DNA from: a virus
IMG/VR virus record: IMGVR_UViG_3300044949_001206
Location: 1-30,736 of that record
Length of the DNA stretch: 30,736 bases
Reading direction: 5' to 3' (one strand)
A model generated the notes under the pieces. That model was not told the DNA's origin. It was given only the letters and a program-made list of their open reading frames with translations, and did no database searches. A program made the translations under genes and the position numbers. Each line of letters begins with the position of its first letter. Position 1 is the first letter of the stretch. Of this stretch, positions 1,474 to 29,094 are shown piece by piece.

Positions 1474-4400
1474 AGCGAATAGTCCCTCAGCGTGTAGGTA
1501 GCCATATTGTCACCCGGCCCGCCACTATCTGTTATGCCCCAGAGGAGGAGGGTCTTCTGCGAGCCGTCCGGGAGCTGCACGAGGACCGTGTCGCCAGGCT
1601 CGGCATAGTCCAGGAGCGGAGCCTCGACCGTATAGACCAGGTGGCTGCGCAGGTACTCGTCCATGTAATTTTCAGCGTAGCTCCTGCACTCGGCCTGCGG
1701 CATGTTGCCCAACCGGATGATCTTCGTGCGGCCCCTCGCGATGTGAGCCTGGGCCGTCGCTGCCGTGGTCGGCGAGCCGCCCGTGAATGTCACCGTGGGG
1801 ATGCTCGTGAAGCCTCGATTGACCGAACCGGAGATGAACAGCCGGGTGACGCGTCCACCGACCACCTCGGTCGTCGCCGTGTCCGTGTTCGTCCCGTCGG
1901 ACAGGCTCACGGTCGGAATGCTGGTGTAGCCAGCTCCTCGACCGGTGACGACTATCTGATTCGTGACCTGCCCATAGGTGGCGCTGTTGCGCTTCATCCA
2001 GGCCGTCGGGGCGTACCGGAAGCTCACGTTAAGGTTGCCGTCAGGCTGCGCCCAGGTCGTGCCGAACCCGGCAGCGTTCAGCGTCGCATTGCTGGCGAGG
2101 TTGCTGTTATCGGTCATCGTGGCCGTGTGGGCGTTCGTGTCTCGCTGGAGGATCTCGATCGACGTAATGCCCTTGTTGACCGTGTCCGTGATCTGGCGAA
2201 CCGATATAGCAATAAAGCTATAACGGTCCGGGCGGATCATCCGCTCGAGGTCCTTCTTCTCGATCGTAAATGGCTGGTTGTTCTGAAGCGGTATCCAGTC
2301 AGCCGAAGGAAGCAGGGTCCAGTTGTATACGAGGTTATCTTGCGTCAATTCCTGGAGCGGCTGGGTTCCGGTCGACGCAAACACGCCAATGATCATTCCC
2401 TGCCCAGAAATGCGTATGCTCTCGATGGTCGGGTAAACTTCAATAGGGTTGCTCGGCGGAATCGTAAACCACATCGTGTTAAGAAAGCTCTCGACATCGC
2501 CGCCAATGTCAACGGGAACCGCCTTCGTCGTGTCGTCGCCATCGAAAGCCGCTTGTGGGTTTGACCACGTCTTAGTGCCTGCAACCGCCGAGACTCCGCC
2601 AAAAGCGATGCTCGCGATGTCAGTCGGGTCATCGGTATCGTTTTGCGAGATGACCGTCATGCTAGTGATTCGCTCAGCGCGATCCTCTACCTTGACTTGA
2701 GCGATTCCAGGTAAAACATATGCGGGTGCTGCGGCCTGGGTAACAGGTCCGATCTTGACCTTCCCATCGATACGATCGCGGAGCAGTACGTTTGGCGGAA
2801 AGCTCGTCGCCATCCACTCCTTGACCATCTCGTCCATGTAGATGCTGGATGCGGTGCGCTCCTTTGATACGATACCGGTGTTCTCGATAATCCAGTCGTT
2901 GACGTAATCAAGAGGTCCATCCACGAACTGCTTGCTCGTGGCAATAGCTATCCATGTCTCGACGTTGTTATTGACCGCTTGTCCGTTCAGCGTGTCATTC
3001 TTGGCTTCGACCGTGTAAACGCCAATATCGTTGTTATTCCATGCGTCGTAATCGCGGGAATCTCTATTGAGTAAAAGATGACTCGTCGAAAGCCAGTATT
3101 GATCAGTTGCTGAGCTTGTTCTATGTCCAGTGAACGGGATCATGTGTCCGATCTGATAGTATGCGCCCGCGCATTGAGGTCGCAGGCCGTTGATGCTTGT
3201 GGCCGCTGTTGGCAGCTCGCCGACAGCGACGGGTGTGCGACCAGAGAACGCCTGCACGGCTTCGAGGGTGGAAACCCGGATGCGGTCACCCGGGCCGGCA
3301 TTCGCACCGCCAACCGGGTTCGTCGGGAACACATCGACGGTCATCTGTCCGGTCGTGCGATTGATCGCCGTGATCTCGACCGTGCGCTCGTTGCCGTCAG
3401 CGAACGTGACCGTGAGATACTCCTTGTTCGACCACCCAGAGGCCGGGAGACCTGGCTCCGTGCCGCCGAGGTCGGAGATGCCGGTGATGTAGCTGGCTGC
3501 GTCGGTGGGCGTGATGAACCGGCTTCCGACGTTCACCGATGCAATGGTGGTCGGAAGCAGGTTCTGCGGGTCCCTCCGGTTGCAGAGAAAGTAGGGCTCG
3601 CGACCGCGGGCGTTGATGACCTCGAAGGTGGTGATCGTGCCGGACATCGTGAACGTCACTGACGTGGTCGCCGTCAGGTTAAACGCCGCCACGAGACGAC
3701 TGTAGTAGGTTCCAGTTGGTCCGCCTGAGAGCGTCATCGTGCTAAGCGTATCGCCGTCAATCATCGCCAGGTAAAACCCGGCTGGCAGACTGATCGTCTG
3801 CGTAGAGACACCGGTTGCGAGGTTCGTCGGGCGGATCTTCGGGACGATCCAGCGATCGACCACCCGATACCTGACATAAAAGTTACTGGTGAAGCTATTC
3901 TTCCAGTGAATCTCATACGGGAACACGTTTGTGACGGTGTGGTAATCTGCCGACCCGCCACCGCTTGAGTAGAGCGTGGCGAAGTTCGCATCGCTTGCCA
4001 CCTGGACAGCCGTCCCGATAGAGGTGTCGTGTGCCGCGCTTCCACCCGTCTCGCGCAGGTACATGTGGCTATCACCGGAGAGTTGCCACACGGTCGTGGC
4101 GTTGACGCTGGTCGCCGGGTGCTTATACTGGATCGTCCTGGCGATTCCGATGAGCGGATGAAACCGCGTGAGCAAACCTGGTCCGATGAACCTGCGTGGC
4201 GTATAGTTCCCGCGAAGCTTCGACAGCACGCCCTCGCACGAGACCTCCAGCACCTCCACGATGCTGCCGCCCCGACGGGTCACGCTCTCGCGGACCTCCT
4301 GGATGACGCCCCGGAAGTATGCCCACAGGCCACCGCCGATCCCGCGGTCGACCTGCACCTGCTGGTACTGGCTCACCGTCAGCCCCGCCGGGATGCGTGC

Positions 4401-4601: not shown

Positions 4602-7189
4602 CGGTAGGCCACCGCGTTCGCATTGAGGCTGCGGGTCGTATCCACCGAGGGCGCCCGGAAGTAAGCGCTGTCCGGGAACGCCTCGCGGAAGTCCCGCACG
4701 TTGACGACCTGCGTGTAGATCGGGCGGTCCGGCGTCTCGCCGGGCATCGCCGCGGGCTTCTCCTCGGGTTTGATCCCGAGCATTGCCAGCGCCTGATTAC
4801 GAAGATCAAACAGATTTGGGCCTTGCATGTTCGGAACGACAGCACGACCGCCGCCGATCGGGATGAGCGTCGCGTCGATCGGCATGTCCTTGGGCGTCTT
4901 GGCCATCTCCTGAAAGATCAGGTTAGCCTGATCGCGAGCCTTCTTGGCAGCCTCTTGAAGGGCGCGAAGCTCAGCGCCTCCGATGAGGCCAAAGCTCAGG
5001 CTGTATGCTGGACTGCGCTGAAAGTCAAAGACAGCCTGCTCGGCTTTCCTGGCTCGCTCTTCAGCCGCCTTCGTTTCTCGCTGGAGCTCATCGAACCTCG
5101 GGTTCCTGTTGGCATACTTCTCCGGGTTCACTAGCTTGTCGATCTTCTCGGCGTTGTCTTTGACCTCCTTGGAGATCCGCTCCGCTTCCTTGCCAGCGTT
5201 GACCACGCCCTCGTACATCATCAGCCCGAACATGGCGGCGATGCCGAGCGGACCAGTCAGTGCAGACGACAGACCGTCAATCGCAGAACGAACAGCCGGA
5301 CTCTGCGCCAGGGCCTGGACGATCTGATCTTTCAGTTTACCTCCGATGGTGCTTGCGACTGCACCGAAGTTGCCGGCGAAGAGCTGTGACGCCATAGACA
5401 GCGCGTCATTGAGTTGAGCCGCGGCGTTCTTGGCAGCTTCCTGATCCTGCTTGGCCTGCCACGCGATGTAATCGGTCTTCAGCTTCTTCCGGCGCTCGTC
5501 GTCATCGCGGTCCTGCTTGGCCTGCCACGCGATGTATTCGCTGGTCAGCTTGCGGCTGCGCTCGTCCGCGTCGCGGTCCTGCTCGGCCTGCCACGCGACA
5601 TAATCGGCGATGATCTTCTTGCGATGCTCGGCGTCCTTTTGAGCCTTCTTAATCTCCTCGGATGTCGGACCACCTGCGCCGGCTGGTTTGGTCCCGCTCA
5701 GGCCCTTGAACGCGGTCGACACGCCGCCCGTCTTCGCCGCGTCGATCAGCGCCTGCACGTCAGGCGTGATCAGCCCACCGAGCGCCCGGATTCCCGACCC
5801 GGCAGCCGTGGCCGCCTTCCCGCCCAGCGTGATCACGCCCTGGACGGCGCCACCGATCGCGTCCTTCACATCTTCGGCCTTCGTCTGGAGGAACGTCAGC
5901 GCGTTCCCGAGGGCCTGCTTGATCGGAGCCGGGACGAACGCCCCGATCCGCTCGAGCACACCAGAGACGATCTCCAGGAGCGATCGTAGCTTCTCGCGAA
6001 TCCAGTCGATCACCGCGGTGAACGGCTTGCGGATGTTCTCGACGAGCTTCCCGACGAGGGTCGAGATGCCGGAGAACAGACCCGAGAAGAACTTCGTCAG
6101 GCCTTCCCAGTTGCGAGCGATGGTGTAGGCCAGCGCCGCGACAGCAGCACCCGCCGCGAGGAACGGGCCGGCAGCGACGACGGCTGTGCCGAACGCCGTG
6201 GCCACTCCCGTGAGGGCCGGGATCATCGAGGCCGTGAGCGCCCCAGCAATGGCGACGATCGTGACCTGGAGCCCGGGCGGGAATAGCTTATCCATCGCCG
6301 CGACGAGCCCGGCGTTCTCGATGGTTGCCGCGAACCCGGCGATGATGCTCGCCGCGTTGCCGATGATGTCAGCGACGTGGAACGCCCGGATCAGCCGCTC
6401 GCCGATCAGGGTCGCCGTGCGGGTTGCGCCGTCCACGAGGTTCGAGAACACGCCGTTGATCGTCTTAGCCTGCTTCTCCATCATCCCGGGGAACTTCTCG
6501 TTCATCCCGTTGATGAGCGCGTTGATCGCGGTGGTGCTGTCGATCGCACCCTTCTCGGCGCGCTTCATCGCCTCGGGAATGCTCACCCCGATAGCGCTCG
6601 CGATCATCTTCCAGCCGGGGATGCCCATCTCGGCGAGCTGGTTCATTTCCTCAGCGGAGACCTTGCCCTTCGCCTGCATCTGCCCGAGCGCCAGGGTCAC
6701 GCGGTCGATCTGCTCCTTGCCGCCCCCGAGGCCAGCGACGGCGTTGCCGATCGAGTTCATCAGCGGGATGATGTCCTGGGCGGCGAACCCGAACGCGAGC
6801 AGGCGCCGAGCGCTGTCTTGCAGCCCGACGAACTCGAACGGGGTGGACGCGGCGAACTTGGCGAGGTCCTTGAGGAACGCGTCTGCCTTCTCGGCAGACC
6901 CGAGGAGCGTCGTGAACGCGACGCGGGACTGCTCGAGATCCGCGGCGAGCTTGATCGACGCGATGCCTGCCGCAGCCAGGCCGGCAGCGACAACGGCCAT
7001 CGTGCTGGCCGCAGCCTGCGAGACACCGCGCAGCCGCTCGAGCTTGTCGGCGTGAGCGGCTGCCGCACGGGCCGCCTTCGCCTGCTCACCCTCCAGTGCC
7101 TCGATGCGACCGATCAACTCCTGGAGCTGCTTGCTAGCATCCCCGGAATCGACCTTCGCCGTGATGACGATGCTACCTTGAAGAGCCAT
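4598..7189 (-). CDS. Tail tape measure protein
   Basis: At 863 aa this is a typical tape measure, the helical protein that sets tail length and fills the tail tube. Residues ~60-250 match the known tape-measure N-terminal domain, including TPFEFVGLQDSARRL, ALGQMQAKGKVSAEEMNQL and EMGIPGWKMI. Hydrophobic, Ala/Gly-rich segments lie at about 300-355, and long charged helices follow. Three tandem 21-aa units of the type DYIAWQAKQDRDDDER lie at about 516-582, a periodic coiled-coil-like block. The ATG at 7189 lies inside the end of the frameshifted chaperone frame, which stops at 7173, giving a 17-nt overlap and coupled translation. Position after the chaperones and before the hub protein confirms the role. 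Confidence 0.93.
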   Translation of the reverse strand: MALQGSIVITAKVDSGDASKQLQELIGRIEALEGEQAKAARAAAAHADKLERLRGVSQAAASTMAVVAAGLAAAGIASIKLAADLEQSRVAFTTLLGSAEKADAFLKDLAKFAASTPFEFVGLQDSARRLLAFGFAAQDIIPLMNSIGNAVAGLGGGKEQIDRVTLALGQMQAKGKVSAEEMNQLAEMGIPGWKMIASAIGVSIPEAMKRAEKGAIDSTTAINALINGMNEKFPGMMEKQAKTINGVFSNLVDGATRTATLIGERLIRAFHVADIIGNAASIIAGFAATIENAGLVAAMDKLFPPGLQVTIVAIAGALTASMIPALTGVATAFGTAVVAAGPFLAAGAAVAALAYTIARNWEGLTKFFSGLFSGISTLVGKLVENIRKPFTAVIDWIREKLRSLLEIVSGVLERIGAFVPAPIKQALGNALTFLQTKAEDVKDAIGGAVQGVITLGGKAATAAGSGIRALGGLITPDVQALIDAAKTGGVSTAFKGLSGTKPAGAGGPTSEEIKKAQKDAEHRKKIIADYVAWQAEQDRDADERSRKLTSEYIAWQAKQDRDDDERRKKLKTDYIAWQAKQDQEAAKNAAAQLNDALSMASQLFAGNFGAVASTIGGKLKDQIVQALAQSPAVRSAIDGLSSALTGPLGIAAMFGLMMYEGVVNAGKEAERISKEVKDNAEKIDKLVNPEKYANRNPRFDELQRETKAAEERARKAEQAVFDFQRSPAYSLSFGLIGGAELRALQEAAKKARDQANLIFQEMAKTPKDMPIDATLIPIGGGRAVVPNMQGPNLFDLRNQALAMLGIKPEEKPAAMPGETPDRPIYTQVVNVRDFREAFPDSAYFRAPSVDTTRSLNANAVAYR
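5456..5645 (-). repeat. Three tandem ~63-bp repeats inside the tape-measure gene
   Basis: The plus-strand words cctgccacgcgatgta or close variants recur three times at 63-bp spacing and encode 21-aa units centred on DY(I/V)AWQA(K/E)QD. Tape measures grow or shrink by in-frame repeat changes, so this block may reflect tail-length variation. Confidence 0.75.
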
Positions 7190-7918: not shown

Positions 7919-7948
7919 GTATCTCTCCTCCCGAGAGGCTCCGAAGGT

Positions 7949-21698: not shown

Positions 21699-22381
21699 CA
21701 GATCGATCTCCTTTCGCGGTATCCTGCGAGGGCCTTCTGACGCTGGCTCTGGATGCCAAGCTCCCGGAGCTTCGCTTGCAGTGTCTTGTTGCTCACGCCG
21801 ATCACATAAGCGATCGCGTGCATCGCATGCCCGGCCTCGATCAGCTTGCGGATCTGCGGAATCTTGTTCTCCCAGTCGATCTTCTTCCAGCGCTTGAGAT
21901 GCTCCTCTGAGAACTTCAGCACGCCCTCAGCTCGCTTCTTCGCCCTCATGTGTGTGACCCATGCCTCAGACCGATTGACCTCGACGGCGATCTCAGCGAT
22001 TGTCGCGCCTTCTTCCGTCATCTTGATCACGAGGTTAACGGCCCTATCGTGGTCATCAGGCAGGGGGCGACCACGGCGACGGCCCTCGAGAGCCCCGGCG
22101 TCGATCATCTGCCGGATGATGGCGTAGCAGGTGGACATGTTCCGGTTCACCCGCACCGAGATGTCGGCGACGGACACGCCTGATCTGTACATGTCCACCA
22201 CGGCCTTGACGAACTTCGGATCGCGCACCATCGTGCGAGGCGCGATATCTCCTCGCATCTCCATCCGACGGATCATCTGCGCCACGGAGGCGCGGTGCCT
22301 CCCGAGTTCCGTCGCCATGTATTCCTGCGTGCGGCCCTCCTCGAGCCACTGCTTGATCTGCTTGTGGACGTCTCGCTTCAC
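21698..22381 (-). CDS. Protein with four helix-turn-helix units
   Basis: I choose the GTG at 22381 (VKRDVHKQIKQWLEEG), which has GGAGGGAAAGCT before it and overlaps the previous stop as GTGA. The 227-aa product carries four HTH-like segments: TQEYMATELGRHRASVAQMI (about 18-37), SVADISVRVNRNMSTCYAII (about 69-88), TIAEIAVEVNRSEAWVTHMR (about 126-145) and AMHAIAYVIGVSNKTLQAKL (about 189-208). Basic linkers (LEGRRRGRPLPDD) lie between. This is a DNA-binding protein, likely a transcriptional regulator or nucleoid-like binder of long or repeated sites. No catalytic domain of a resolvase or transposase is visible. Confidence 0.75.
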   Translation of the reverse strand: MKRDVHKQIKQWLEEGRTQEYMATELGRHRASVAQMIRRMEMRGDIAPRTMVRDPKFVKAVVDMYRSGVSVADISVRVNRNMSTCYAIIRQMIDAGALEGRRRGRPLPDDHDRAVNLVIKMTEEGATIAEIAVEVNRSEAWVTHMRAKKRAEGVLKFSEEHLKRWKKIDWENKIPQIRKLIEAGHAMHAIAYVIGVSNKTLQAKLRELGIQSQRQKALAGYRERRSI

Positions 22382-22713
22382 AGCTTTCCCTCCGCTCGCA
22401 ACGTACGGACGATCAGGCTCACGGTCGGTTGACTGCACCCGAGCTTCTCGGCGATCTCGACCTGCTTCGCCCCGGCGCGGGTCATCCGCAGGACCAGCGC
22501 GATGAACTCCTCGGGGCGGGCGTTCGGGCGGATCTTCACGCCGAGCTTCCTGAGCTCCAGGGCGACGGCGTAAGGGTGCAGTGTTCCGCCTCGTGTTCCC
22601 GTGTAGCCCATCTCGATGAGGCTGTCGGCGATCTCTCGGAGGCTCGCGCCTGCCCGGTAGGCGTCAGCCGCCGCGTGCATCGCCTTCTCGTCGGGGGGGT
22701 TCTTCGTCGTCAT
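22378..22713 (-). CDS. Protein with two helix-turn-helix units
   Basis: This 111-aa protein starts with ATG 22713 (MTTKNPPDEKAMHAAADAY) behind GGAGATCTGAC. It has one HTH-like unit near the N-terminus (ASLREIADSLIEMGYTGTRG) followed by a second (KQVEIAEKLGCSQPTVSLIV, about 83-102). It is coupled by GTGA to the four-HTH gene downstream. The two probably come from repeated duplication of the same HTH type and may act together on DNA. Confidence 0.72.
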   Translation of the reverse strand: MTTKNPPDEKAMHAAADAYRAGASLREIADSLIEMGYTGTRGGTLHPYAVALELRKLGVKIRPNARPEEFIALVLRMTRAGAKQVEIAEKLGCSQPTVSLIVRTLRAEGKL

Positions 22714-25111: not shown

Positions 25112-25327
25112 TCACCAGTCGATCGCGGCGCCCTGGAGCTCGAGCTCCGTCAGCTCGCCGATGATCGTCCGCAGCCGCGCGAGGGCCGCCTCCCACTGCG
25201 GGTGGTCGTCGTCGTGGTCCTCGAGCCACGCCTCCGCCTTCGCGAGCCGGTTCAGCGCGTCGAGCACCCGCGGATCAGGGGGTGTTGTCTTCGGGGTCGA
25301 GCTCGTCGACAAAGGTTTCTCGGTCAT
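25112..25327 (-). CDS. Small hypothetical protein overlapping the primase-helicase end
   Basis: The frame ends in TGA at 25114-25112 and contains MTEKPLSTSSTPKTTPPDPR then a helical acidic part (LDALNRLAKAEAWLEDHDDD, LARLRTIIGELTELELQ). ATG 25327 overlaps the primase-helicase gene by 53 nt. A further in-frame ATG at 25444 has the better Shine-Dalgarno (GGAGATCAAGG) and would give 110 aa nested in the helicase end. Both are possible. The first ~20 residues are Thr/Pro/Ser-rich and probably flexible. Confidence 0.6.
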   Translation of the reverse strand: MTEKPLSTSSTPKTTPPDPRVLDALNRLAKAEAWLEDHDDDHPQWEAALARLRTIIGELTELELQGAAIDW

Positions 25328-27137
25328 CGCGTCCGGCTGCGGCGTCTCGTCCGGTGGTGACGCTTTCGCCAGCGCCTCCTGATTGAACAGACTGTTTCTG
25401 TCCGATCGATGCCCACGCGGTGTGGACGCTGCTTTTCTTTCCATCCTTGATCTCCTCCGTAATGGTCGTCTCGAGTACGAGCTTGCTGTCCGGGTTTACG
25501 ATGACGGCGACCTTCCCCAGGGTGCCGTGCTCTCGGTGTTTCAGCACCTCGATGGTCGAGTGCGCCTCGTGGCGTGTGACCACGATGACGTTGTGAGCAA
25601 GGTCCGTGATCTCGCTCGTGCCCTTGATCGCGGCCTTGTCAACGCCCTGGTGGTCGCTGGCGCCCTTGCGCGGGTGGGCGACCAGGTGGACGTGCGCGTC
25701 GTAGGTCCTCGCGAACGCAGCCAGGCGGTCCACGGTGGTCTTCTGCGCGGTGTAGTCGTCCACCCCGATCCGCAGCCTCATCATGCTGTCCACGACGAAA
25801 TGCCGAACGTCGTACCGGCGCCGGGCGTAGGTCCAGACCTCCAGCAGGCGGTCGACCTCGAGGGTTCCAACGTGGTCGAGGAACCACAGGCCCTCCCCGA
25901 GCTGCCGGACCGTCTCGCGGACCATCGGCTCGTCGAGCTGGTGGCTGCCGGCCGTCTGCATGACCAGCCAGCGGCTGTACCTCGGGACCGGAAGCTCGAG
26001 GGTGGCGATGCAGACGCGCTCGCCGGCGTGCACGATGATGTTGCTCGCGACCTGCCCGAGCACGGTGCTCTTGCCGCTGCCATTCGCGCCGGTCCAGACG
26101 GTCAGCTCTCCCGCGCGAAACCCTCGCAGGATGCCATCGAGACCACGCAGCCCCGATGCCGTGCCGACCAGCTTGCCCTCGTCGAGGAACGCGGCAACGA
26201 TCGCGTCCTCGCAGTCCAGGATGCTCACCAGCGCGTCCGGGGTGGTCACCGTGGCGTTGTTCACCGCAGCCACGATGTCCGATGCAGGCAGCCCCGCCAC
26301 GAGGCACTCGTTGAGGTCCTTCATCGGCCACTTGACCACCGCGGTCCGCCAGTGGCCGATCCGCTTCGCCAGCTCAACGGCACACTTGCGTCCGGCGTCG
26401 TCGTCGTCCAGGCCGATCATGATCTCCGAGAACCGGTCCAGCCACGGAAGCCACTCCTCGACCCAGCGCAGGTCACCAGTGCCGCCAGGCATGCTCACCA
26501 CCGACCGGATGCCATACTCGGTGGCGCTCATCGCGTCGATCTCGCCCTCGACGATGAGCAGGCTGTCCGCGTCGTCCGGGATCAGGTGCATACCGACGAG
26601 GCCCGGCCTGGCATCGACCTCGTGAAAGAACCCCTTGCCAGCGATCGTGCGGCGCTTCACGTCGATCAGGGTGCCGGCGTCATCGTACACGGGCCAGAGG
26701 ATGCAGCCGTCACGGAATCCCACCCGCCACGCCCGGGCCGTCTCCACCGAGATCCCGCGACGCTCGAGGTAGGCCAGGTGGTTGCTGCTCGTGCTGGCCG
26801 CGGCTTCCTCGGGCGGGAGCCGGTAGACCTTGCGCGCGGTCTGGACCGAGACCAGCTCCCGCGGCTCGGCGATCGGCCGTGCACCGGATAGCCGCTCGAC
26901 CAGGGTGTAGTAGCCGCCGCGCTGCCCGCAGCTGTCCTGGCGGTTGCAGATGAAGCGACCGTCCGTCAGGCTGACGCGGAACGTGCGCTCGGCGGTCCGG
27001 CCCTTCCGGTCCCCAGACCCGCAGAACGGGCACCGGGCCGCAGCCTCGGGTCCCTTGCTGCTGTTGACCTCTGTCCAGCCCGGTATGTAGCGATCACAGA
27101 ATGACCGGATCTCGGTCATCGTTGGGGGGTTGAGCAT
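25275..27137 (-). CDS. Primase-helicase (T7 gp4-like: zinc finger, Toprim, DnaB-type ATPase)
   Basis: This 620-aa protein begins MLNPPTMTEIRSFCDRY at ATG 27137, with TAGGAGATCGAG before it. A CHC2-type zinc finger is at ~36-70 (CPFCGSG and CNRQDSCG). The Toprim primase centre follows: LLIVEGEIDAMSATEYGI (about 195) and IMIGLDDDDAGRK (about 240). The RecA-fold helicase starts with Walker A WTGANGSGKSTVLG (about 350), a Walker B-like RHFVVDSMMRLRI, and HVHLVAHPRKGASD with KGTSEITDLAHNVIVV towards the end. One polypeptide thus primes and unwinds DNA at the fork. The Asp-rich C-terminal tail (FVDELDPEDNTP) may bind polymerase or SSB, as in T7. Confidence 0.94.
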   Translation of the reverse strand: MLNPPTMTEIRSFCDRYIPGWTEVNSSKGPEAAARCPFCGSGDRKGRTAERTFRVSLTDGRFICNRQDSCGQRGGYYTLVERLSGARPIAEPRELVSVQTARKVYRLPPEEAAASTSSNHLAYLERRGISVETARAWRVGFRDGCILWPVYDDAGTLIDVKRRTIAGKGFFHEVDARPGLVGMHLIPDDADSLLIVEGEIDAMSATEYGIRSVVSMPGGTGDLRWVEEWLPWLDRFSEIMIGLDDDDAGRKCAVELAKRIGHWRTAVVKWPMKDLNECLVAGLPASDIVAAVNNATVTTPDALVSILDCEDAIVAAFLDEGKLVGTASGLRGLDGILRGFRAGELTVWTGANGSGKSTVLGQVASNIIVHAGERVCIATLELPVPRYSRWLVMQTAGSHQLDEPMVRETVRQLGEGLWFLDHVGTLEVDRLLEVWTYARRRYDVRHFVVDSMMRLRIGVDDYTAQKTTVDRLAAFARTYDAHVHLVAHPRKGASDHQGVDKAAIKGTSEITDLAHNVIVVTRHEAHSTIEVLKHREHGTLGKVAVIVNPDSKLVLETTITEEIKDGKKSSVHTAWASIGQKQSVQSGGAGESVTTGRDAAAGRDDRETFVDELDPEDNTP

Positions 27138-27146
27138 CTCGATCTC

Positions 27147-27848
27147 CTAGGGGTTCGGCCATGCCTCAAGGGGCTTGATCTTATCATCTCTCAGCAGCTT
27201 GGAGAGCTTATGCGCCGGGAAGTCATCCGGCTTTCTGTTGATGTAATCGAGGATGCGATCGAAGTATGGGCCTTTCCATCCGCCGACACGCTCGAGGTTA
27301 GCGGCAAGCCACGCAACACAATTCGCTTGCTCATACTCGTCCAGGTCTGCCCGATGAGGATACATGTCCCACAGCATCCGCCAGTGCTCGGACTCGTATA
27401 TCTCCCTCTTCTTGGAACTGTCATCGAGAGAGCGCCGCGGCTTGTCCGCGGCTGACTGTCGCGGCTCGTCCGCGACTATCTCTCTCTTCTTTTTCTCATG
27501 TAAGACCATGGGATCATGGGGAGTAAGATGTGTCCCTTTCACGGGGATTTCGTAACCAGAACCAGTCCCTTTCACGGGGAAGCCTGTCCCTTTCACGGGG
27601 ATCGGGTACACCCGGATGTTGCGATAGCCCTGCTTCGTGCCTTGACCGTGATTCGCGCCGAACCGATAGACCATCTTCTGCTGATGCAACCAATCAATCA
27701 TCGGACCGATCTTGTTCTTGCCGATGCCGAGCCTTGCCGCGATCTGCTTGTCCGAAAGCCCCACCACCATGTTCTCATCAGCCATCATCAGCAGCTCGAC
27801 ATGTAGGCCGATGTGAGAAAGCCTATCGAGGCCCTTACCTACCGCCAC
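27147..27848 (-). CDS. Replication initiator-like winged-helix protein
   Basis: The GTG at 27848 (MAVGKGLDRLSHIGLHV) is 8 nt past GGAGG and overlaps the upstream gene by 10 nt. The 233-aa product has an N-terminal winged helix (VGLSDKQIAARLGIGKNKIG), a basic and repeat-rich middle (three PVKGTG units at about 83-105, then two KKREI boxes) and a C-terminal domain (HWRMLWDMYPHRADLDEYEQ) like those of phage O/DnaT-type initiators or helicase loaders. It precedes the primase-helicase, and its coding sequence carries iteron-like DNA. It would open the phage origin and load the helicase. The family name is inferred from layout. Confidence 0.75.
   Translation of the reverse strand: MAVGKGLDRLSHIGLHVELLMMADENMVVGLSDKQIAARLGIGKNKIGPMIDWLHQQKMVYRFGANHGQGTKQGYRNIRVYPIPVKGTGFPVKGTGSGYEIPVKGTHLTPHDPMVLHEKKKREIVADEPRQSAADKPRRSLDDSSKKREIYESEHWRMLWDMYPHRADLDEYEQANCVAWLAANLERVGGWKGPYFDRILDYINRKPDDFPAHKLSKLLRDDKIKPLEAWPNP
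27434..27476. repeat. Two tandem 19-bp inverted repeats in the initiator gene
   Basis: gccgcgg-cttgt-ccgcggc (27434-27452) and gtcgcgg-ctcgt-ccgcgac (27458-27476) are perfect 7-5-7 inverted repeats spaced 24 bp apart, nearly the same word twice. They lie about 55 bp from the iteron cluster and may bind a protein or fold on single-stranded DNA. Confidence 0.75.
27532..27600. other. Candidate replication origin: three identical 15-bp iterons
   Basis: gtccctttcacgggg occurs exactly at 27532-27546, 27565-27579 and 27586-27600. Start-to-start spacings are 33 and 21 bp, near whole helical turns. A pyrimidine-rich tract tctctctcttctttttctc lies at 27478-27496. Iterons inside the initiator gene are the arrangement of lambda-type origins. 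All wobble positions agree between the copies, which a protein-level repeat alone would not require. Confidence 0.65.
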
Positions 27849-28182: not shown

Positions 28183-28602
28183 TTAGAAGTCCAGCTCGTC
28201 CGCGTTCGGGAGAACGGCCTTGATGATCGAACGCTGGCTCTCACCCTCGCCGATGGTCATCGTGAGGACCTGGACTTGCCGGCCCACCAGCTCGTCGAGC
28301 TTGCGGACCAGGTCGGGGCTCGAGACGGGCAGGTTCATCATGGCCGCGACCCACTCGCGGGCCACGCTGGGCTTCTCAGCGTTGCCCCACTTCGTGCTCG
28401 TGAAGCCGGGGATCTCGAACTCGCCCTTCTTCGTGATGAGGTTGAAGGTCCAGGCGATCCGGTCTTCCATCACGCCGGTGTCGCGGTTCGGCTTCTGATA
28501 GATACGGTAGCCCGTGAACCCGGCGGTGTAAGTCCGATCTGGGATCTTGTGGTTCACGCGGTCGGACGGGGCTGCCTTCTCAGGCTGGAACTCGAATGAC
28601 AT
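28183..28602 (-). CDS. Probable single-stranded DNA-binding protein or related OB-fold protein
   Basis: The start is ATG 28602 (MSFEFQPEKAAPSDRVNH) with GAGGAGGTCAAGC before it; a longer reading from 28695 crosses the promoter and is rejected. The 139-aa product is beta-rich with aromatic and basic residues (YTAGFTGYRIYQKPNRD, RIAWTFNLITKKGEFEIPGF), a helical part (VAREWVAAMMNLP) and strands near the end (GRQVQVLTMTIGEGESQRS), finishing with the acidic ADELDF. The acidic aromatic tip is typical of SSB-like proteins that bind partners. Its own promoter and place before the initiator and primase-helicase fit. No definite SSB signature is seen, so the call is moderate. Confidence 0.55.
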   Translation of the reverse strand: MSFEFQPEKAAPSDRVNHKIPDRTYTAGFTGYRIYQKPNRDTGVMEDRIAWTFNLITKKGEFEIPGFTSTKWGNAEKPSVAREWVAAMMNLPVSSPDLVRKLDELVGRQVQVLTMTIGEGESQRSIIKAVLPNADELDF

Positions 28603-28660
28603 GCTTGACCTCCTCGGGTCTTGTCGTCGGGTATGCTTGTGTCGGGGTGCCGACATGTCC

Positions 28661-28688
28661 ACTCTACCCCGGGTTTCTCGGGAGTCAA
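28661..28688 (-). promoter_or_regulatory. Candidate leftward promoter for the SSB-like gene
   Basis: On the minus strand: -35 TTGACT (28688-28683), 16-bp spacer, -10 TAGAGT (28666-28661). The 8-bp palindrome gacatgtc (28652-28659) lies just downstream and a related agcatgtc (28691-28698) just upstream, 39 bp apart, possible operators. The site lies between divergent genes. Confidence 0.6.
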
Positions 28689-28728
28689 CGAGCATGTCAG
28701 GTTAATTATTCGTGCAGGAGATCCGGCC

Positions 28729-29094
28729 ATGGGCGAGAGCGCGATCGTAAACGAGGTCATTCGGGCGCTGTACGATGAGCCCGGCGTGTGGATCTGGCGG
28801 AATAACTGCGGCGTCGCGAAGCCTCCCGGGGCTCGTCGTGCCATCCGGTTCGGCATCCCGGGCCAGGGCGACATCTCTGGTATTGTGCGGTTGGACCTCG
28901 GGATCGGCATTCCGGTAGGGGTGCGGCTCGAGGTCGAATGCAAGGTGCCGGGCGGGCGTCAGTCGCCAGAGCAGAAAGACTTCCAGGCGAAAATCGAAGA
29001 ACTCGGCGGGTGCTACCTGCTGGTCCACAGCGCCGATGAAGCCCTGCGAGAGCTGCGGGCATGGCGAGCGGACAGATCACCGGAGGAGAAATGA
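28729..29094 (+). CDS. VRR-NUC family nuclease
   Basis: This plus-strand ATG at 28729 (MGESAIVNEVIRALYDEPG) is preceded by GCAGGAGATCCGGCC. The 121-aa product is a single VRR-NUC domain: a helical start, IWRNNCGVAKPPG, FGIPGQGDISGIV with the G-x-x-D metal ligand, LEVECKVPGGRQSPEQKDF with E-x-K and the Gln, and CYLLVHSADEAL. Such small phage nuclease domains may act in recombination or branch cleavage. It is one of only two genes in the window transcribed rightwards, opposite to its neighbours. Confidence 0.93.
   Translation: MGESAIVNEVIRALYDEPGVWIWRNNCGVAKPPGARRAIRFGIPGQGDISGIVRLDLGIGIPVGVRLEVECKVPGGRQSPEQKDFQAKIEELGGCYLLVHSADEALRELRAWRADRSPEEK

Follow-up and report, generated by a model that had tools for sequence, protein, structure and literature searches.

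The window analysed here, which covers the whole of the IMG/VR record IMGVR_UViG_3300044949_001206 (30,736 bp), contains a locus that is very probably (we put it at about 85%) a phage replication origin embedded in its initiator gene, in the manner of gene O of lambda and gene 18 of P22. A candidate origin of this lambdoid type had already been proposed inside the initiator gene in the first-pass annotation, and it is the best-supported reading of the locus, resting on what is observed there: repeats that are conserved at the level of the DNA, the dyad within them, an adjacent tract, a fold, the gene order, and the recurrence of the same layout in other phages. The arrangement of iterons, an easily melted stretch, and hairpin-forming sequences has long been known from lambda and P22. 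This lambda/P22-like intragenic origin is of a known kind and of a new sequence lineage, and the locus provides an uncultivated phage lineage, which has no annotated relative, with a concrete candidate origin and initiator.

The candidate initiator gene (27,150–27,848, minus strand) encodes a protein of 233 aa with an N-terminal winged helix, a linker in the coding sequence of which the iterons lie, and a C-terminal domain, as judged from the open reading frame, weak PHROG matches, and AF2 modelling. No Pfam family matched this protein, and its sequence similarity to lambda O is at the level of noise. The only close relative found is the contig L005 (primase 94% identical), the initiator of which weakly matches three families of phage initiators, phrog_270 (E = 0.0016), the O-like phrog_345 (E = 0.043), and phrog_186 (E = 0.052), in the same register; no other close homologue of the initiator was found in phages, viral contigs, or genome contigs. 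The AF2 model of residues 1–82 (pLDDT 75), for which nine N-termini of initiators encoded at this locus in other phages were used, has the form of a winged helix; the full-length model, built from two sequences, had a pLDDT of 42 and was too poor for use. The best matches of the domain model among solved structures are MarR-like winged helices, and its viral matches include replication initiators, a replication protein O among them. The winged helix is a generic fold, common to MarR-type regulators, and the 233-aa protein is predicted from the model to be a winged-helix initiator. The next gene downstream (25,275–27,137, minus strand) encodes a primase/helicase of the TOPRIM plus RecA/DnaB type (phrog_239, E = 1.5e-104; Toprim_2, DnaB_C), and the place of the initiator directly upstream of it is that of replication protein O in Sf101, which has the same gene pair with a primase/helicase of the same family. 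Elsewhere in the window, a 246-aa protein (21,701–22,438, minus strand) matches several helix-turn-helix families at different positions.

Three exact copies of the 15-bp sequence GTCCCTTTCACGGGG (plus strand) lie at 27,532–27,546, 27,565–27,579, and 27,586–27,600, as the first-pass annotation had it, and no further copy occurs across the 30,736 bp. The spacings are 33 bp (3.1 helical turns) and 21 bp (2.0 turns). The repeat unit extends beyond the 15-mer to 17–18 bp and, in coding order on the minus strand, iterons 1, 2, and 3 occupy 27,585–27,602 (ATCCCCGTGAAAGGGACA), 27,564–27,581 (TTCCCCGTGAAAGGGACT), and 27,531–27,548 (ATCCCCGTGAAAGGGACA), respectively. Their core is a hyphenated dyad, TCCC-CGTGAAA-GGGA, the arms of which (TCCC-N7-GGGA) are unchanged in all seven copies from the window and L005. 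The iterons lie between the two domains of the initiator, at relative positions 0.35–0.45 of the gene. The peptide PVKGTG that they were said to encode is found in the first two copies and gives way to PVKGTH in the third; likewise, the wobble bases are identical, as claimed, within the 15-mer, but the Thr codon just outside it varies (ACA, ACT, and ACA). A GC-skew switch near 27.5 kb had been suggested as a further check, and this speaks neither for nor against an origin there: the cumulative skew reaches its minimum at 28,432, about 0.9 kb from the iterons, but nearly all genes lie on one strand and the skew is uninformative.

On the evidence of these sequences, the iterons are selected as DNA. 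In this phage, AAA accounts for 10% of the Lys codons and ACA plus ACT for 9% of the Thr codons; the iterons use AAA every time and ACA or ACT for Thr, and codon usage alone would give the same P/V/K/G codons in all three copies with a probability of about 0.003. Moreover, the initiator gene of L005 has four iteron copies with the core TCCC-Y-GTGAAA-GGGA, as in the window, and TCCCYGTGAAAGGGA is kept in all seven copies (three in the window and four in L005), a conservation that spans two phages, L005 being the single close relative in the collections searched. The residue preceding PVKG is I, F, or V, but its codon ends in TC in every copy, and one copy in L005 reads VPVKGK, with K in place of T. 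Synonymous drift is visible around the iterons since, in the helix-turn-helix domain, 18 of the 66 codons for the same residue (27%) differ between the two phages. The first-pass annotation had taken the identical wobble bases as a sign of selection on the DNA and scrambled synonymous codons in homologues as a sign of the contrary; the rare codons and the seven-copy core support the former, and no such scrambling was seen in L005.

Along the initiator gene, an AT-rich tract that includes a purine run (GAGAAAAAGAAGAGAGAG) comes after the iterons, and the hairpins come after the tract. The tract (27,487–27,530, minus strand; CATGATCCCATGGTCTTACATGAGAAAAAGAA on the coding strand), which is partly purine-rich, is a candidate DNA-unwinding element; between 27,487 and 27,531, it is 60% AT as against 44% for the gene, in a GC-rich genome, and is weaker in this respect than that of lambda. 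Two nearly identical 7-5-7 inverted repeats, reported at 27,434 and 27,458, are indeed present on the minus strand: repeat A, at 27,458–27,476, reads GTCGCGG-ACGAG-CCGCGAC on the coding strand (GTCGCGG-CTCGT-CCGCGAC on the plus strand), and repeat B, at 27,434–27,452, reads GCCGCGG-ACAAG-CCGCGGC (GCCGCGG-CTTGT-CCGCGGC on the plus strand). Their stems are set apart by a single, compensated pair (T-A versus C-G), and a search of the record that allowed up to 3 mismatches gave no further site. The pyrimidine-rich tract noted earlier does exist on the plus strand, at 27,477–27,501 towards the iterons (purine-rich on the coding strand), and to this can be added an outer stem that had been missed, in which GAGAGAG (27,426–27,432) pairs with CTCTCTC (27,480–27,486) over 7 bp and encloses both hairpins, so that the block (27,426–27,486, minus strand) folds as a three-way junction. 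The z-score of this fold is about −5.4, whether as DNA or RNA, and none of 200 dinucleotide shuffles folded as well. A search of Rfam at the origin locus returned nothing. The idea that the 19-mer of the hairpin is a REP-like or mobile palindrome was rejected, given its single copy in the record and one match in each of 11 viral contigs.

Comparison with L005 divides the gene in two. In blastn, the DNA of the two phages is about 89% identical up to 27,487 and again from 27,154, and nothing aligns between these positions. This C-terminal cassette (27,154–27,486, minus strand, from blastn and alignment), which is non-homologous in L005 (there at about 4690–4962), has its upstream boundary at the edge of the outer stem and its downstream limit at the end of the gene. 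As the alignments have it, the C-terminal domain and the hairpins are exchanged as one piece, and the DNA-binding domain, the iterons, and the first part of the AT-rich tract are retained in both phages; the initiator of this pair splits cleanly into a module comprising the iterons and the DNA-binding domain and an exchangeable C-terminal module. L005 has a different, weaker 8-bp inverted repeat, which begins 52 bp past the last iteron, as does that of the window; the notion of a strong conserved hairpin in L005 was dropped, its fold being weak, and only the 8-bp inverted repeat is counted. Since the two phages have nearly the same primase/helicase, this helicase is presumably what both C-terminal domains serve, unless they serve something else. 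Outside the gene, the intergenic region at 28,603–28,729 is identical in L005 throughout, with flanking genes about 89% identical; it has a promoter-like site on the minus strand (28,688–28,661) and a divergent plus-strand open reading frame from 28,729, and is probably a regulatory region in which operators could lie.

The lambda origin consists of four iterons and an AT-rich region of 38–40 bp in gene O (PMC3349717, PMC5043065), and its iterons are hyphenated dyads (PMC5043065, PMC6022878); in lambda, its lambdoid relatives, and the Stx phages, such iterons lie mid-gene, as they do in the window (PMC7466680, PMC5043065). The arms of the lambda iterons read TCCCTC...GAGGGA, and the TCCC...GGGA common to these and the window would be due to chance or convergence. 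In the lambda sequence, the iterons are followed by aaaagaaaaaagaaaag and then by GTCAGAGAATTCTGGCGAATCCTCTGAC; as in the window, an AT/purine-rich tract comes after the iterons and an inverted repeat after the tract, and the initiator gene adjoins a gene for helicase recruitment. The window differs from lambda in that its initiator has no detectable sequence homology to that of lambda, in its three dyads of 15 bp as against four of 18–19 bp, in its next gene, which encodes the primase/helicase rather than the loader P, and in its two hairpins inside an outer stem, a doubled and enclosed version of the lambdoid hairpin. In P22, the annotated rep_origin lies inside gene 18, with repeats, an AT-rich tract, and an inverted repeat, CCCCCTTACCCCCTAAAGGGGG, in that order, within it or at its edge; the iterons and initiators of P22 and Sf101 are unrelated in sequence to those of the window, the background of which is GC-rich. 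The paired inverted repeats beside the iterons had been described as a layout not recognised, and this does not stand: the layout is lambdoid, as seen in lambda and in the annotated origin of P22. To judge from its description, oriL of SPP1 is also comparable, with direct repeats and an AT-rich unwinding element in gene 38, which encodes the origin-binding protein (PMC6316719); SPP1 differs in having a separate loader (gp39), a DnaB-type gp40, and two origins.

Among phages that use this primase/helicase, many show the lambda arrangement, built from unrelated sequences. The gene immediately upstream of a relative of the primase/helicase was taken from each of 80 viral contigs, which gave 60 distinct genes, non-initiators among them, with gene starts as predicted and unchecked. 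Iterons, defined as three or more similar 14-mers that fall in a stretch of 160 bp and cluster mid-gene, are present in 16 of these 60 genes, as against 1 of 300 codon-shuffled versions, and their sequences are mutually unrelated. Of 20 comparable genes, 18 show AT enrichment over the 60 bp that follow the last iteron on its 3′ side (p = 7e-6), and the folding just beyond the iterons has a median z of −2.45 versus −0.7 in control segments. An inverted repeat no more than 90 bp past the last iteron occurs in 12 of 21 iteron-bearing genes, the window excluded, where shuffles lead one to expect 1.4 (some of the genes are related, a few of the inverted repeats are of low complexity, and the score threshold of at least 7 was chosen after the first results had been seen); control segments of the same 21 genes have one in 8 of 119 cases. 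The initiators upstream of relatives of P22 gene 12 (7 distinct genes) are too small a set for testing; that of P22 conforms to the layout, and 3 of the 7 have no clear inverted repeat or only one built of iterons. An extreme case of the design is found in the contig L095, where a gene in the initiator position (2251–3198) has seven iteron copies (ACCAGTGCAGATGC) in about 140 bp.

In lambda, a complex of initiator dimers assembles on the iterons, the AT-rich tract is melted, and the helicase is loaded (PMC7466680, PMC5043065). By analogy, we infer iteron binding, melting, helicase loading, a role for the hairpins, and origin activity at the locus in the window. The winged-helix N-terminus of the 233-aa protein would bind the three 15-bp dyads, probably as a dimer; these are separated by two and by about three helical turns, which would put them all on one face of the helix. 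The resulting nucleoprotein complex would strain and melt the adjacent AT-rich, purine-rich tract, and the C-terminal domain would deliver the product of the next gene, the primase/helicase, to the opened strand. Beyond the tract, the hairpin block would be an accessory element of the origin, which may provide a site for landing or priming by holding one of the displaced strands in folded form or, alternatively, may stop opposing transcripts or unwinding.

Two other explanations concern the repeats themselves. If they were operators, through which the helix-turn-helix protein represses its own operon from inside the gene, the origin would lie elsewhere, for example at 28,603–28,729; the closeness of the generic N-terminal model to MarR-type repressors and the promoter-like site and complete identity of that intergenic region in L005 fit this idea, which is nevertheless unlikely given that the iterons lie about 250 bp inside the gene and not at its promoter, that an AT-rich tract and a hairpin come after them, as in known origins, and that the genes are ordered as in a replication module. 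It is even less probable that the repeats matter to the protein alone, as a PVKGT peptide that recurs in a disordered linker. Both phages keep them in frame (at spacings of 21 and 33 bp), and they sit in the linker between the domains, but a protein feature would leave unexplained why rare codons are fixed in all copies and why the DNA is constant where the flanking residue varies. Moreover, a DNA scan of viral contigs for three copies of VKGT gave L005 as the sole match in an initiator, the others being unrelated or of low complexity; this rules out PVKGT as a general or widespread peptide motif, and no match to the string came up in the collection of papers searched.

The part played by the hairpins is a separate matter, since they could be unrelated to the origin (a 24-bp tandem duplication, a structure in the mRNA, or an antisense terminator) even if the iterons form one. 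The two units do amount to an in-frame 24-bp duplication (peptides VADEPRQS and AADKPRRS), a T-rich stretch follows them on the plus strand as after a terminator, and the block belongs to the swapped cassette, its sequence not being conserved in L005 and its strong fold being absent there (z of −0.8 to −1.6 over an 86-nt stretch). Against this, the stem change is compensating and there is an outer stem, a terminator scan did not report the block, L005 has its different inverted repeat at the same 52 bp, lambda and P22 each have an inverted repeat too, and 12 of the 21 other iteron-bearing genes have one in the same place. On balance, an accessory origin function is somewhat favoured, with a coincidental or expression-related structure a serious if lesser contender. 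Minimal ori-lambda (39,034–39,160; PMC3349717) ends where the inverted repeat of lambda has barely begun, which suggests that hairpins may be dispensable. An inverted repeat beside the iterons, an element almost wholly outside minimal ori-lambda, is far commoner than chance in other phages, and its recurrence is the part of the result worth following. It is a tentative and rather doubtful extension that a hairpin 20–66 bp past the iterons is a general and functionally required part of intragenic phage origins, its structure being kept while its sequence turns over and its inheritance following the C-terminal helicase-recruiting domain rather than the iterons.

Far from this locus, between phage tail genes, the minus strand at 7938–8001 matches the Rfam int-alpA RNA (39.1 bits, gathering threshold 35.8), which is an odd place for that family.
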